Both the position numbers and the translations under genes were made by a program. Shown piece by piece: positions 8,298-44,194 of a DNA stretch of 44,194 nt. Numbering within the stretch: the stretch's first letter is position 1; the number at the start of each line of letters is the position of its first letter. Under the pieces are notes generated by a model. That model was not told the DNA's origin. It did not search any database and saw only the letters and a list, made by a program, of their open reading frames with translations. The DNA is from a candidate division SR1 bacterium (GTDB lineage Bacteria; Patescibacteriota; Gracilibacteria; Absconditabacterales; Absconditicoccaceae). The DNA lies in contig SKJI01000016.1 of NCBI GenBank assembly GCA_007115995.1, forward strand, positions 1 to 44,194. Reading direction: 5' to 3'.

Positions 8298-9098
8298 ATG
8301 ACAAATATTTGATATATTTTACAAATTGCTCAATATCGAAATCGACCGATTACGCTTCATGATCCTGATAAGGTTTGGGTAGATATTCATCTACCAGGTT
8401 GAACCGTTTCTTGTATTCATAATGTTCTTTCAATAAATGATGCAGGATTTGTTGCATGGTGCAAAGATAAATCTTTACAATACTGTTTGTTTTGAGCATA
8501 TATGCCTAAAATGCATACATATATCGATCCTACTTATATCGAGAAGAAGAAGCATATTCATACTAATCAAGTGTTTACTTCAGTAGAACATATTATAAAT
8601 GATATAGAAACACAATATACGTTTCCATGTATAATCAAAAGATGAAAATGAACACTGTGAAGAAATGTATTTTTATGTCAGAAAAGATCTGACGTAGAGA
8701 ATGCTATTTCTACTATATTAGCTGATACGAAACTTTATGATTATTTGATTCTAGCACAAGAATATATTCATTTTGAGATTGAATATCGTTTAATTATAGT
8801 ACATAATCGTTTAGAGCTTGTCTATAAGAAACAGTATTTTTGGGATAAGAGCATAAAACACAATCGTACCATCATAGAACCTTCTGATGATATATTTATA
8901 CAGTTACAAGAATTTATTAAGAGTTTGACAAATCATCTTACTTTTACCTGGGCTGGTCTTGATGTTGTAGTTGATAATAATGGCAAGTTTTATTTGATTG
9001 AGTGTAATGCTAATCCTCAGTTCCATTCTTTTGTGAAACATAATAGTATAGAACCATTGTATAATCTTTATTATAAAGCATTCCAAGCTTATATATAG
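8298..9098 (+). CDS. ATP-grasp (RimK-like) ligase (266 aa)
   Basis: The ATP-grasp fold is recognised from the nucleotide-binding lysine and glycine-rich loop IKRGKGTLGRNVFL near residue 112, the strand and acidic pair AQEYIHFEIEYRLIIV near 150, and the metal-binding end TWAGLDVVVD then FYLIECNANPQF near 215-236. The overall order resembles RimK and related amino-acid or peptide ligases that join a carboxylate to an amine using ATP. The substrate cannot be read from the sequence. The N-terminal ~85 residues replace the usual pre-ATP-grasp domain. TATAGA sits five bases before the ATG. It is flanked by the metalloprotease and the photolyase-like gene. Confidence 0.8.
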
Positions 9099-9124: not shown

Positions 9125-10255
9125 ATGTTTGAAATTATATCTCATGAGGATTTAAGAAAGAAAGTAGATACTTTTGATGCGATCGCGTATTGTCGTACAC
9201 GTAACTATCTTGATGGTAATGTGTCATATTTGAGTCCGTACATAACCCACTGAATTATATCTATCAGAGATATTTGTACTATTGCGTTAGAGCGTTTTTC
9301 TGTAGCTGAAGCTGAACAACGATATAAAGAGTTGCTTTGGAAAGAGTATTTTTTGCAGGTATATTGGTGGTTATGAGATGCTATTTTTTCTGATATAGAG
9401 GAGAGTAAAACTGGAATCCCAACGTATGAGTGTCTGCCAGACGCTATTTTTCAGCATACGTTTGCATCAGAGTGAGTTAATCAAGCAATAAAACAATTAG
9501 AGGAAACCTGATATTTGCATAATCATGTAAGAATGTGGATTGCATCGTATTTGACTCATTGGCATCGTTTAGATCGAAAGAAATATGCTGATCGAAGTTA
9601 TTTTCATTTTCTAGATGGAGAGCTTGCATCCAATCATTTAAGTTGGCAGCGAGTCCAGTCAACCTTTTCTCATAAACCATATATTATGAATGAAGAAAAT
9701 TTGCAGAAATATTGAGGAATTTCCGATGCATTGTATCGTGGTAGTTATGAAGATATTGCAGAGAAACTTTTTGATTCTTCAAGAGTTCCACTCTTTGCTC
9801 ATGCAAAAGATTATTCATCACAGCTACAAGGTGATTATTCGATGATTCCTTCAATGAATCCATCTAAGTACTCGTGATATACCGTCTTAACACCTTGGGA
9901 TTTACACCCGTCTAAAATTAATGATCCAACTAAAACAGTCTGTGTTCTTGATAGTAATTTTCTTGATACACATCCTTGGAGTAAGAACAGAGTAGCGTTT
10001 GTGCAAGCATATACTGACCTTTATGGTATAGAGTGTGTTTATGGTTCAGTTCAGAAGATCGTTGAACAATCTACGAATTTGACTGTCTATGAGACGCCTA
10101 ATCCATCATATAAAGAAGCATATAAGTATATAAAAAAACACAACAATGGTCGTGTTCATCCATATGATTGGATAAATCCACATGCAACGAAACGTTTTAC
10201 GAAGAAATTTTTTCCTTATCGAAAAGAGAGTAAGCCATTCCTCCAAACAATGTAA
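9125..10255 (+). CDS. Photolyase/cryptochrome-like flavoprotein with apparently swapped domain order (376 aa)
   Basis: Residues 1-215 carry FAD-binding-domain hallmarks of the photolyase family: YLSPYITHGIISIRDI, ELLWKEYF, GYLHNHVRMWIASYL, FHFLDGELASNHLSWQ and KPYIMNEENLQKY. The canonical N-terminal alpha/beta antenna domain is absent. Instead a Rossmann-like region follows (VCVLDSNFLDTHPWSKNR, then VAFVQAYTDLYGIECVYGSV). This looks like the antenna domain placed at the C-terminus, but that assignment is my inference. The likely role is a light-dependent DNA repair enzyme or a flavin photoreceptor. ATG at 9125, UAA at 10253-10255, 26 bases after the ATP-grasp gene. Confidence 0.75.
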
Positions 10256-22043: not shown

Positions 22044-23903
22044 ATGAAACAAATAGTAGAAAAGTTTTTGCAACGAGCGGCTCGTTTGTATATAAGAAGA
22101 CATAAACCTTATATTATTGCTATTACTTGAAGCGTTTGAAAAACATCATGTAGGATGGTGCTAGCGCAATCGCTGAAGAAATTATTGCCTGATATACGTG
22201 TGAGCACATCTCCAAAAAATTTTAATAGTGAAATTTGATTATGTTTATCAATTTTGGAGATTACAGCATGGTCGACTGCACCGTTGAGTATTCTTACAAG
22301 TTGTGTTATCGCATTACTTCGTGCTTTATTTTGACCAAAAAGATATGATATTCTCGTTGCAGAGTATTGAATTGATAATGTTTGAGATATGGACCTTCTT
22401 GTAGGTATTGCACAACCAGACATGTGAGTGTTTACTGTACTTGATAAGGTCCATGCGTCACAGTTATGAACACCTGATGAGATACTTGATGAAAAAGCAA
22501 AACTTTTCCCTGCTGTGCGTGACGTTTTGTTTGTTTCTTACCAGTCTATATCGTATATTAGAGAACATGTACAGCACATTTCTGCAGATTTATTGACTTA
22601 TGCGTTGTATGATACTGATGCAAAGCTTGCAGATATTTGTCGAGAGAAAAGAACAATAAAGAGTGATGATGAATGAAATCCTTTTCTCTCAGCATATATT
22701 GAACAATGAGAAGATCGTGTATGGAATATCACAACTAATTTGCTCACTGAACCTGATGTTTGATATATCGCATTATCAATAGAAATGGCTATGATTTTGT
22801 CATTAAGATTTGATATACCGATGCTTACTCCTCAATCAGAGCAGCCAGTTGATCTTATTTTTGAACTGCAACCATGAAGAATGAGTTTTTTGTCTTGAAA
22901 ATTTGGTAGTGTACTTGTTGATTCGACATATAATAGCGCACCAAAAAGTGCTCTGTCAGTATTGTGAGCAACGTACTCACTGGTCAAAACTCTCTATACA
23001 GATTTTGATTATCTAGTCTGTTTATGAGATATGAGAGAGTTATGAGAATTTAGTGAACAAGAACATAGAAAAATTGCTTGAATTATTGCTCAAAGTGCTG
23101 ATGCTATCTATCTTGTTTGATCTGAATCAAAAAAATATATACTTGATGAACTCCATAAAATATGATACGATGCTGATGCGATATTTTGGTCTTCATCGAG
23201 TAAAGAAATATGAGAACTTTTACTGCAACATATTCCCAAAAGGGATCAGCGCTCGATGATTGTCTTTAAATGAAGTCAGAACACTATTTTTCTAGAAGAG
23301 GCAATCAAACCTTTATTAAAAAACGAAGAAGATGCCAAAAATTTACCAAGACAATCTAAGCGATGGTTACAAAAAAAACCATTGATGCTTCTTCTATTTC
23401 TTTTTTGTACTGTTTTTTTATGATGATGTAGTCTTATAAGCACGGGTGTATCACAAGAGCAACAAATGAGCGATAGTTCTATAGAATACACTAATCAAAT
23501 ACTAGAGTATCAATGAAATATCTCAGAGGTATGTATTAATAATTCTTGTTTTGCAGTGGAAATTGCTAACACACCACAAGCGAGACAGCAATGATTGATG
23601 CGAAGAGAAGACTTGGCTGACGATCAAGGTATGTTATTTGTGTTTGATGAACCATGATTATATAGATTTTGGATGAAAAATACACTTATCCCTCTTGATA
23701 TGCTTTGGCTTGATGAAGATAAAACTATTCTTTATATAGAGCACAATGCTCAGCCCTGTGAAGAAAATGAAATTCGTTGTCCGTCATATGGGCCTACAAA
23801 CGGAGATCCTTCCCTTTATGTTCTTGAAATACCATGATGAGTAGCTGATCGTTTATCTATTCATACTTGAATGTCTGCAGATTTTGTAAAGAGATTGCAA
23901 TAG
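22044..23903 (+). CDS. murF: MurF-like Mur ligase fused to a TM segment and DUF192 domain (619 aa)
   Basis: Residues 1 to ~435 are a MurF-type ligase that adds D-Ala-D-Ala to UDP-MurNAc-tripeptide: P-loop IAITGSVGKTS near residue 32, [29 protein letters not shown], and [14 protein letters not shown] near 290. The frame then continues without a stop through KRWLQKKP and a hydrophobic segment ending FLGGCS, which resembles a lipoprotein box. A DUF192 domain follows ([49 protein letters not shown]). Basic residues before the helix would place MurF inside and DUF192 outside. DUF192 is normally a separate small exported protein. An A8 run at the junction (23371-23378) could hide an indel, but the frame is consistent across it. 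UAG stop. Confidence 0.85.
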
Positions 23904-40836: not shown

Positions 40837-43800
40837 ATGTATGCTTACTTTACTGGATATTATCTTACTTGCAAGACTATGGTAGAAAATCATCAAAAAT
40901 GATACAAGAAATATCAAGAAGGTTTCAAAGCTCAATTTAAACACTGATTGAAAAGCTTACTTTTGGAGTTGAAAATACTTCAAGAATGAAATATATCAGC
41001 TAATAAAATTATGTGAATTTTAGAAAAATCGACTGACTCATTTTTACAGACATCTTGACTCACTAAACAGTCGTTATTTGAAATTATACAATCAATTGAT
41101 CGAGAAAGAGTATCTATACAAGATTTTGATGAAATATTGATAGATCGATCTGCTTTAGGGTCACAGCCAACACAACTTGAGTACTTCAAAGATAATGACC
41201 AGCAACAGATGCTTACGCTGTATGCATTTTTATGAGATAGTGCTGTAAGCAATCTACAATGATATATTTCAAGAGACAAACGAATGACATTACTCGCTGA
41301 GAGTGCCTTACCATATTTTGATAGCAATACCCGTCAGCGAAAACAATCAGGAGATCTTCTACAAGCACCTCCCCGTATCAAGCAAAGCGATATGAAGAAT
41401 TTTTTTCGCGAATTTAATACTATTGTTTCATCCTTAGATCTCCAAGAAAAAGAGGCAAGGAAGATATTTGATATGCGTACTTCACTTGCAGATGTACTTC
41501 GTTTTGGGAAGCAGTATGATTTGCTGTCTGATGATATATCTTACTATCTTTCTTGAGATGTCCATGCATGATATGAATCATCATCATGAATTACAGGTAG
41601 TAGTTTACTTCTTTATTTACACCAACTAACACCAGATATATATAAACAACTCCAAGATGAAGAGAAAGAAATGCGTGATTTTTTTACTGTATCGTGATGA
41701 TCTGTTTCAGCATATCTCTTAAAAAAATACCCGTTGTATCAGTTTGAAGAGTTCTTAAAGAAAACCAATACAACCTCAACATTTTCAAAGAAAAAAGAGC
41801 GTTGACTTATCCAAAAAGACTATGCAGCACAGTATTATGCTTGGGTTATTAGACAAGCTACACAGTCCAATGATAAGCAATATGTACAAGTTGCTCGTGC
41901 ATCAAAAAAACTTCTTATCGATAAACAAGCACTCAAACCAACTGAGGTCAATAAGTTGGGAGAGTCGATAATGCAGCTACTTCTCGATCAGAAGCAAGCA
42001 ACATTTTCATCAACTATGGAGGTGTATTTTAGACAAACGTTTGAAGCAATACGTCCAAAACCATCACCAGAAACAATCACCGCAATAATACACTCATATC
42101 AAGATTTTTTTTCGTCACTATTCCGTTGGGATACAACTGAGCATGTGCTCAACAATGCTTCGTGAGAGCTGTTATTTACACTTCAAAGCACCAAGTCGTT
42201 GGAATTTTTGCCTCATAAGTTGGACGATGCAACATCGATCGAAGAGTTGTTTGCGCTGCAGATTGCTATGCGTGCAACTCCTGAATCATATCCTGCACTT
42301 GCTGCATGTAATCCTACTCAGCTTCGAAGTCCGCACCCTATTCAATCGAAGAGTCCACTATCACACGAATTATATTTACAAAAAAATCAACGCTATCATA
42401 TTTATGATGAAACTGGGAAGAAATACACGTGATATGTACGTTTGGAAGTAGTGGGTGAGTATGATGAAAATAATCCTGCAAAGAATACACCCAAATATAC
42501 TCTTGTTTGTAGAGATTCAAACAATCCTCAAAACGTTTCATATCCATCTGGACAAGATTGATATATGACCTTTCAAGAACTTGTTAGCGGTTTGAAATTT
42601 GATCCAATAGATGATACGTGAGTTGTCGGAACACCGTGATTTCAACAAAGATTATTGATGAATGATACAAACGGATTTTCGAGCTACTTTGCTCATATGG
42701 ATCATGTGGCTTTGTGAGTCTATTATTCGTATCTTGAAGATCAAGCATTATCATCTCAGGCAACTGTTACGCAAAAAAACTATGAGTGCAATTTTCTTAC
42801 TCACATCGATGAGAGTCGTTATTTGCAAGAATCAGCTGAGCGTATACATAAACGCTATACTGCTATGAAAATCGCAACGAGTAAGGATATTCCATGAGCA
42901 CTTCGCAAGAAGTCTTCACAAGATATTGATGCCTGGATTGACCAATGAGCAATCATGCTTAATAACGATTTTTTTATGAAGAAATATGGTATCAATTTCT
43001 TTGATCCGTCATTATGATTGATAGATACTGATTGATATCTTGATATGGTAGCTGTAACTGAATGGGTCAATGAACTGTGTTTACTACCAGGCTGATTGGA
43101 TAGTCCTGAAGCGCAAAAAGAAGACAAAAAAAGAAGAGCGATTTTGTTGGAAATTAGACAGCTACAAGCTCATGAAAAAGCACACAGGATTTTGCATGTG
43201 TATGGTCTTGTTGATAGAAATATTGATGGTACTTTTTGATCACTTGTTGTTCATCCACTCAATGATGCATGAGAAGAGAATACCGATGTTTCGTTGGTGT
43301 TGACCAATGAGATGCTTTGTGAAATAGCAGAATGATGGTTGTATCTCACAGAACAAAATCCAGATATAAGCGATCAAGTAAGATTTCTCTATCCTTATAA
43401 AACGATTGAAAAAAATGGTCAGTTGATCAATGTGATTACTCTTGAGCATCAAGGCAAAACATATACGGTCGCAGTTCAGCATATTGAAGAACGTATTCTA
43501 GAACGTATTCAAGCATTTCATCCTGATTTGCAATCGTTTCAATTTAAGCATATCGATACATTTGACCACGAAATGATCCATAAACTCCATAAAGCTGGTA
43601 GTTTGGACGCGAAAATGGAATGATTGTTGGAAACAAGTTTTTCACGTGAGGATGCTGCACAAATTACCAGAGCATACGCCCAAGATCCTGCCAATAGTAA
43701 TAAAGTCTTTCTTTTCCCTGACAACCTTGCTGATGCATCACAACCTGCGTGATCAAGATCTGCGCAATGAAATCAATGATTGGCTGGAATACTTGCACGT

Positions 43801-44194
43801 ATCGCCCAAAAAGCGCGTGCTGTGTGAATTCCGTTATGAACGGATGCGACGACGCCATTTGCTCATCCACTCAATCAGCAAGCAACGATAGCTCTCAATT
43901 CAGCGATTCAGCAAATTGAACAACTTGAGCAAGCATGACGTGAGATTGTTATGCCAGTTGATGCTCAATGAAATGCAGTATTGGGTAATAGTCTTTGAAA
44001 TACTCATCAAGATCTTATTAATCATCTGAATGGATTACTTACTTGACTATCCCCAACCTTGGCGTTGCAGGCTCCAAACAATCCAAATAACCCAAACAAT
44101 CCAAATAACCCAAACAATCCAAATAACCCAAACAATCCAAATAACCCAAACAATCCAAATAACCCAAACAATCCAAATAACCCAAACAATCCAA
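40837..44194 (+). CDS. Very large hypothetical protein, 3' end beyond the window (at least 1119 aa)
   Basis: ATG at 40837 follows an in-frame UAA. The frame then stays open, with UGA as Gly, to the window edge. There is no signal peptide or membrane segment. The middle has a beta-rich part (YHIYDETGKKYTGYVRLEVV, YTLVCRDSNNPQNVSYPS). Two HExxH-like motifs occur, AHEKAHRILHVYG near residue 775 and DHEMIHKLHKAG near 911; neither has an obvious third zinc ligand, so catalysis is unproven. The C-terminal part becomes Gln/Asn/Ala-rich and then a pure NNP repeat. The family was not recognised. A large surface or effector-like protein is possible but unproven. Confidence 0.8.
44074..44194 (+). repeat. 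18-bp tandem repeat encoding NNP
   Basis: Nearly seven identical units of 18 bases run to the window edge. Each encodes Asn-Asn-Pro twice with alternating codons (AAC AAT CCA, then AAT AAC CCA). The perfect DNA identity and the position at the end suggest the sequence ends because of the repeat. The true copy number is unknown. Confidence 0.95.

Follow-up and report, generated by a model that had tools for sequence, protein, structure and literature searches.

Does a photolyase-like gene of a candidate division SR1 bacterium carry the two domains of its superfamily in inverted order? The gene lies in a window of 44,194 nt, the whole stretch of DNA analysed here (contig SKJI01000016.1, positions 1 to 44,194; assembly GCA_007115995.1). 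An earlier note had read its product as a photolyase-like protein with the FAD domain first and an antenna-like domain last, departing from an alpha/beta domain held to be N-terminal in all canonical photolyases and cryptochromes. The first part of this reading is borne out by PF03441, VIA structure comparison, AlphaFold2 modelling and orthologues. The second needs revision: the N-terminal position is no longer the sole order, as inverted photolyases (Phr4/Phr5/Phr6 and NewPHL) were described in 2020–2022. The inverted order is already in print under several names, and the window protein is not unprecedented.

At least 590 relatives were found, and the best 80 loci were studied; because these are the best matches to the window protein, they do not sample inverted photolyases at random. 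Among the best 80, 28 loci encode an FAD domain only and 52 are others, from which L083, L094 and L131 (contig ends) and L104 (masked letters) were excluded. This gives 48 complete fused proteins, or 47 after leaving out L069 (A3, A6), which has a table 11 stop. The same domain order as in the window protein is found in these 47 other complete aligned relatives (from the best 80 of at least 590).

The gene is a single frame of 376 aa under table 25 (9125–10255, + strand), running from an ATG at 9125 to a TAA at 10253–10255, with six in-frame TGA codons read as Gly (Table 1). Under table 11, one frame of at least 80 aa is listed within the gene. Five of its codons are CGA (residues 66, 151, 157, 176 and 366), and four of these fall in columns that hold Trp in the relatives; in the column of residue 66, 2 of 47 relatives carry it. 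The columns of the CGT and AGA codons have Trp in 0 of 47, and CGC and AGG codons do not occur in the gene. Two of the four CGA codons of the neighbouring glycyl-tRNA synthetase (49 and 251) align with Trp in its best PDB relative in an alignment read by eye; codon 306 corresponds to Asn, and codon 129 lies outside the aligned stretches. The genome (1.0 Mb, 50 contigs, 94.5% complete) contains tRNAs with anticodons UCG and CCG (L054:301-374, − strand; L063:100-172, + strand). These two tRNAs and tRNA-Trp(CCA), their sequences read by eye, all have A1:U72 and G73, which are used as signs of Trp identity in PMC8629427, a source that also reports CGA and CGG as Trp for Absconditabacteria. Because of the Trp columns, the tRNA features and this published recoding, we adopted the code '25,CGA=W,CGG=W'; in the source genome CGA and CGG are most likely read as Trp besides TGA as Gly. 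Table 11 and plain table 25 were rejected, as they leave stops or place Arg at nearly invariant Trp positions. Across 20 frames of the window there are 55 CGA and 3 CGG codons. In a genome recoded in this way (TGA=Gly, CGA=Trp), a standard translation misses active-site tryptophans that are in fact intact.

Table 1. Positions in the window of the photolyase gene, its predicted parts, its recoded tryptophan codons and the gene upstream.
Feature	Position	Strand	Basis or remark
Inverted-domain photolyase gene, 376 aa	9125..10255	+	TGA=Gly, CGA/CGG=Trp; orthologues
N-terminal FAD-binding (catalytic) photolyase domain, residues 1-221	9125..9787	+	PF03441, VIA, family profile
Linker, residues 222-245	9788..9859	+	AlphaFold2 confidence
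C-terminal alpha/beta domain, residues 246-376, shortened Phr5/antenna-like, conserved FFxYW end helix	9860..10252	+	hhalign, lone fold
CGA codon, Trp151	9575..9577	+	position of A. nidulans W367; Trp in 46/47 relatives
CGA codon, Trp157	9593..9595	+	Trp in 46/47 relatives
CGA codon, Trp176	9650..9652	+	position of A. nidulans W392; Trp in 47/47 relatives
CGA codon, Trp366, terminal helix motif	10220..10222	+	Trp in 44/47 relatives
RimK-like ATP-grasp gene	8298..9098	+	26 bases upstream of photolyase gene, same strand

The FAD domain, whose motifs the earlier note had placed in residues 1–215, comprises residues 1–221 by VIA, and its N-terminal position is followed by a C-terminal alpha/beta domain, as in other inverted photolyases. 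With the corrected code, PF03441 matches residues 66–182 at E 6.4e-15, its score rising from 41.1 to 55.5 bits (cut-off 27), so that the FAD_binding_7 domain of the photolyase/cryptochrome superfamily is found by profile as well as by structure. The AlphaFold2 model, built from an alignment of 48 sequences, has a mean pLDDT of 94.0 and a pTM of 0.92, with the lowest confidence in the linker region (mean pLDDT 75 at residues 221–230). In VIA, residues 1–221 of the model align with photolyase FAD domains from Thermus, E. coli and others (best row 1iqr, Z 15.6, 215 residues aligned, rmsd 3.0), and the family profile finds 1owl among PDB sequences at E 4.4e-34. The whole-model fold search also returned a trypanosome mitoribosome assembly chain, 7pub_Ff, which resembles the FAD domain at VIA Z 14.7.

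Active-site residues were mapped to the A. nidulans photolyase by eye from the family-profile/1owl alignment. Kept in the window protein, in A. nidulans numbering, are Y228, S241, L243, S244, W280, E283, W286, N349, R352, M353, W367, D380, N386, W390 and W392. They include the residues that we take to be the CPD pocket of that enzyme, E283, W286, N349, M353 and W392, which correspond to E69, W72, N133, M137 and W176 of the window protein. The electron-chain residues W151 and W174 are likewise kept, and the third, outer position of the chain holds no Trp in the window protein in this alignment. T240, R350 and A385 of A. nidulans are replaced by Val, His and Ser in nearly all of the family. The missing outer Trp agrees with the Trp dyad that PMC8948257 reports for the Dinoroseobacter NewPHL. 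Judged by these residues, the window protein is likely a CPD photolyase with a Trp dyad. Lys73 and Glu166, which depart from all 47 aligned relatives, and the three family-wide replacements count against this. Blue or UV-A light would excite reduced FAD in the FAD domain; a pyrimidine dimer that has flipped into the pocket would receive an electron from the excited FAD and be split, and FAD could be re-reduced via Trp174 and Trp151. The predicted substrate is single-stranded DNA, the one on which NewPHL in the strict sense repairs CPD, and the degenerate Phr5-like antenna domain would pack on the FAD domain and thereby close it.

The same fold might instead have lost repair and serve as a cryptochrome-like light sensor, which we regard as unlikely. 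Such a sensor would fit the deviation of Lys73 and Glu166, two positions at which 47 of 47 relatives have Arg and Asp, respectively. The source genome also carries, on other contigs, a canonical-order photolyase frame (class I-like in our own reading) and an FeS-BCP-type match, so repair could be covered without this gene. These points are set against a CPD pocket and an electron chain that prove intact when CGA stands for Trp, and against a protein without any extra tail beyond its two domains. Adjacent photolyase genes also speak against a sensor: in the best 80 of at least 590 relatives, 34 of 80 have another photolyase gene no more than 3 kb away, and 29 of 80 have one of FeS-BCP type, with 11 'other' matches. 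Both same-family orthologues have a second photolyase within about 1 kb; the tested flanking genes of the window include no photolyase.

The FAD-only relatives help to trace the alpha/beta domain. A separate alpha/beta gene is present in all 28 FAD-only carriers among the best 80 of at least 590 relatives. In 21 of these 28, an antenna-like frame ('Phr5') lies within 1.5 kb downstream, and the remaining seven have Phr5 elsewhere in each genome at E 1.1e-61 or better, two of these distant matches having one stop codon within the matched stretch. In four control genomes that carry fused forms, no match to the Phr5 profile was comparably strong. Two of the four gave weak matches (E 2.6e-9 and 4.6e-6), in frames 549 and 651 aa long; these frames also hold FAD-domain matches and are photolyases of canonical size. 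Gene pairs of Phr4 (FAD-only) and Phr5 (L068–L147) occur beyond cyanobacteria, also in Acidobacteria, Chloroflexi, Alpha- and Gammaproteobacteria.

Several lines of evidence connect the C-terminal half of the window protein to this domain. First, the tail is ordered alpha/beta in the model, with ten-residue pLDDT means of 90–98 from residue 231 on. Second, the profile comparison that the earlier note had proposed for the C-terminal half reaches canonical antenna domains through Phr5, in two steps within which the alpha/beta domain of the same protein is identified as antenna-type. Fused tails (A6) match the Phr5 profile with an hhalign probability of 98.5% (E 1.7e-15), and Phr5 matches canonical antenna domains at 98.1% (E 7.4e-14) in an alignment of 136 columns that begins with the first strand. 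The direct step from fused tails to canonical antenna domains is weak (56.7%, E 1.1e-4, 53 columns); FAD, reversed and six column-shuffled controls stay at or below 2.3%. Of the 52 loci outside the FAD-only group (from the best 80 of at least 590), 8 have a tail that the Phr5 HMM detects at E 1e-3. CotJB, at E about 0.06 the sole Pfam match on the tail, was treated as noise.

Third, the tail was folded separately for structure search, because the FAD domain fills the fold-search list of the whole model. The lone fold (pLDDT 85.5, pTM 0.75) has as its top Foldseek row 4dja, the FeS-type (6-4) photolyase PhrB (E 0.0095, probability 0.99), with unrelated rows already from E 0.025. In VIA the nine top rows are FeS-type photolyases or cryptochrome B, with Z from 7.7 to 7.0; the matches begin near the N terminus of each chain, one stopping at residue 128 and eight extending to 272–298. 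As a VIA Z under 8 may reflect a common arrangement only, the Z of 7.7 supports an antenna relation and does not prove it. The comparison of each half with photolyase domains thus turned out strong for the FAD domain and moderate for the tail. By profile and by this moderate fold match, the C-terminal half resembles antenna domains, not an unrelated fold, and the aligned FAD-first homologues have tails of this kind too, none of them seen with a different assigned function. These sequence and fold comparisons make a shortened antenna domain the most likely identity of the tail.

If the tail were an unrelated, recruited small alpha/beta domain, for example one like universal stress proteins, the domain order would be no inversion. 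The weak direct match of fused tails to canonical antenna domains would fit such a recruitment, and Usp (PF00582) is touched by 9 of 19 Phr5 proteins at E≤1, but PF00875 matches all 19 at that threshold and does so better (best E 3.8e-5 versus 0.0023). These PF00875 matches are themselves weak, the one displayed in full lying below the curated cut-off; among fused tails PF00875 touches 1 of 48, and it has no match in the tail of the window protein. Universal stress protein chains do appear in the VIA list, at Z 6.4 and less, below the nine photolyase and cryptochrome B rows. With the Phr5–antenna alignment extending over 136 columns from the first strand, recruitment of an unrelated domain appears very unlikely. 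Hardly any credence attaches to a decaying copy under weak selection: the four conserved Trp positions that show as Arg under table 25 alone are CGA codons most likely read as Trp, and the two same-family orthologues have open frames across both domains. The whole architecture is retained in these orthologues, one of them 50% identical to the window protein across 377 aligned columns and the other 39% across 385. Identical residues number 125 of 221 aligned in one orthologue and 109 of 220 in the other for the FAD part; for the remainder the counts are 70 of 153 and 46 of 155.

The phylogenetic tree holds 69 FAD domains: 48 inverted rows (23 of the 47 complete fused relatives, L069 read with table 11, 12 of the 28 FAD-only proteins, 4 NewPHL-like rows and 8 further ones, including the window protein) and 21 outside rows, of which 15 are class I/DASH-like and 6 FeS-BCP. 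The NewPHL-like label on the four alphaproteobacterial rows is our own, the published NewPHL and Phr4–6 sequences being absent from the tree, and its midpoint root serves for drawing only. All 48 inverted rows, the window protein with them, group together (97/83), a grouping to be read with the tree program's warning of long FeS-BCP and class I branches that come together. The other 44 inverted rows (96/96) form the sister group of the four NewPHL-like rows. Together with its two same-family orthologues (100/100), the window protein falls into a clade (100/85) made up of 26 fused rows that lack the FeS motif; a CxxC..C motif is found nowhere in the window protein and is absent in 42 of 48 complete fused relatives. 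Split genes require four changes on this tree, two of them forced by well-supported branches, and therefore fusion or fission probably occurred more than once. The earlier note had suggested a circular permutation. The inverted domain order stands, and the permutation event does not follow from it, as the relatives include both fused and split genes, and fission and fusion account for the order just as well. Among 11 papers listed on this combination, none names circular permutation or photolyase in its title or abstract.

How does the window protein relate to the inverted photolyases already named? PMC9426592 describes Phr7 (NewPHL) as an FAD domain with a Z-domain, places Phr4/Phr5 and Phr6 in reversed order in picocyanobacteria, finds Phr7 nearest to Phr4 and Phr6 in an FAD-domain tree, gives FeS cysteines for Phr4 and Phr6, and reports the same gene set in Nostoc punctiforme. 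NewPHL itself (Emmerich et al. 2020) is described in PMC13274461, PMC9426592 and PMC8948257. Like Phr6 and the Phr4+Phr5 pair, the window protein has the FAD domain first, the antenna domain coming last or in the next gene; its tail matches the profile of the Phr5-like proteins collected here, and its FAD domain lies in the part of the tree that holds Phr4-like rows. It differs from Phr6 and Phr4, with their FeS cysteines, in having no CxxC motif, and from Phr5 and Phr6 in a shorter, diverged tail. With NewPHL it shares the inverted order, the absence of FeS cysteines (as reported for Phr7) and the Trp dyad, whereas in the tree it falls outside the four rows that we labelled NewPHL-like. Compared with canonical class I CPD photolyases (1owl, 1dnp), the FAD fold and most active-site residues are alike, and the difference lies in their antenna domain, which is N-terminal, longer and furnished with a WxRRDLR strand. 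The window protein very probably belongs to this set of inverted-domain photolyases (NewPHL, Phr4+Phr5, Phr6), with the FAD domain catalytic and the tail a degenerate antenna domain.

The same comparison bears on the short photolyase-like proteins (SPL; Xu et al. 2021). In PMC9649867 and PMC9178010, these FAD-only photolyases are reported without an alpha/beta domain and proposed as ancestors of the whole family. We infer that SPL is Phr4; no paper linking 'phr5' with 'short photolyase-like' was found among 5.39 million open papers. The window protein differs from SPL in its C-terminally fused alpha/beta domain, and the FAD-only carriers have theirs as a separate gene. Z-type tails from 12 NewPHL-like proteins match fused tails at 0.7%, Phr5 at 29.8% and canonical antenna domains at 16.1%. 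Against a combined fused+Phr5 profile they reach 56.5% (E 1.1e-4), with controls at or below 1.9%. This set of 12 supersedes two smaller ones, of four sequences (Phr5 27.2%, fused+Phr5 7.9%, fused tails 0.1%) and of six (20.3%, 2.2% and 0.5%, respectively). We tentatively suggest, at somewhat less than an even chance, that 'short' photolyases keep their alpha/beta domain, as a second subunit or fused C-terminally, in inverted order, with a tail that degrades stepwise from Phr5 through fused FeS forms to window-type tails and perhaps to the Z-domain. If this is true, short photolyases are a rearranged lineage and not an ancestral single-domain stage. The branch found here, which joins an FeS-free FAD domain to a recognizable Phr5-type tail, shares traits with both Phr6 and NewPHL. 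It offers a way to test whether short photolyases, proposed as 'ancestral', really are single-domain enzymes. Its worth lies mostly in linking separately named inverted groups and in questioning short photolyases as single-domain ancestors.

The gene is sparse in the sampled genomes. Close matches (E<1e-30) were found with the uncorrected protein in 4 of 286 genomes of the phylum and, in another search of 59 genomes that include 36 members of the family, in 3 of these 36, the source genome being counted each time. The RimK-like gene directly upstream is a possible operon partner. As a conserved partner it was rejected, with no match at E≤1 in the relatives' loci (standard-code translation) and no E value below 0.48 in the loci of the two same-family orthologues. 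A phage origin was likewise set aside: nine phage records match, in the FAD part only and over 40–47% of the query, two of the nine annotated phrB. Repeats around the gene comprise one 18-base direct pair and one 15-base inverted pair, which we took as chance. Elsewhere in the window, a frame of at least 1119 aa (40837–44193, + strand), cut by the window end, has no Pfam match at E 1e-4, and a 619-aa frame (22044–23903, + strand) joins Mur ligase middle and C-terminal domains to DUF192, a combination that looks unusual.
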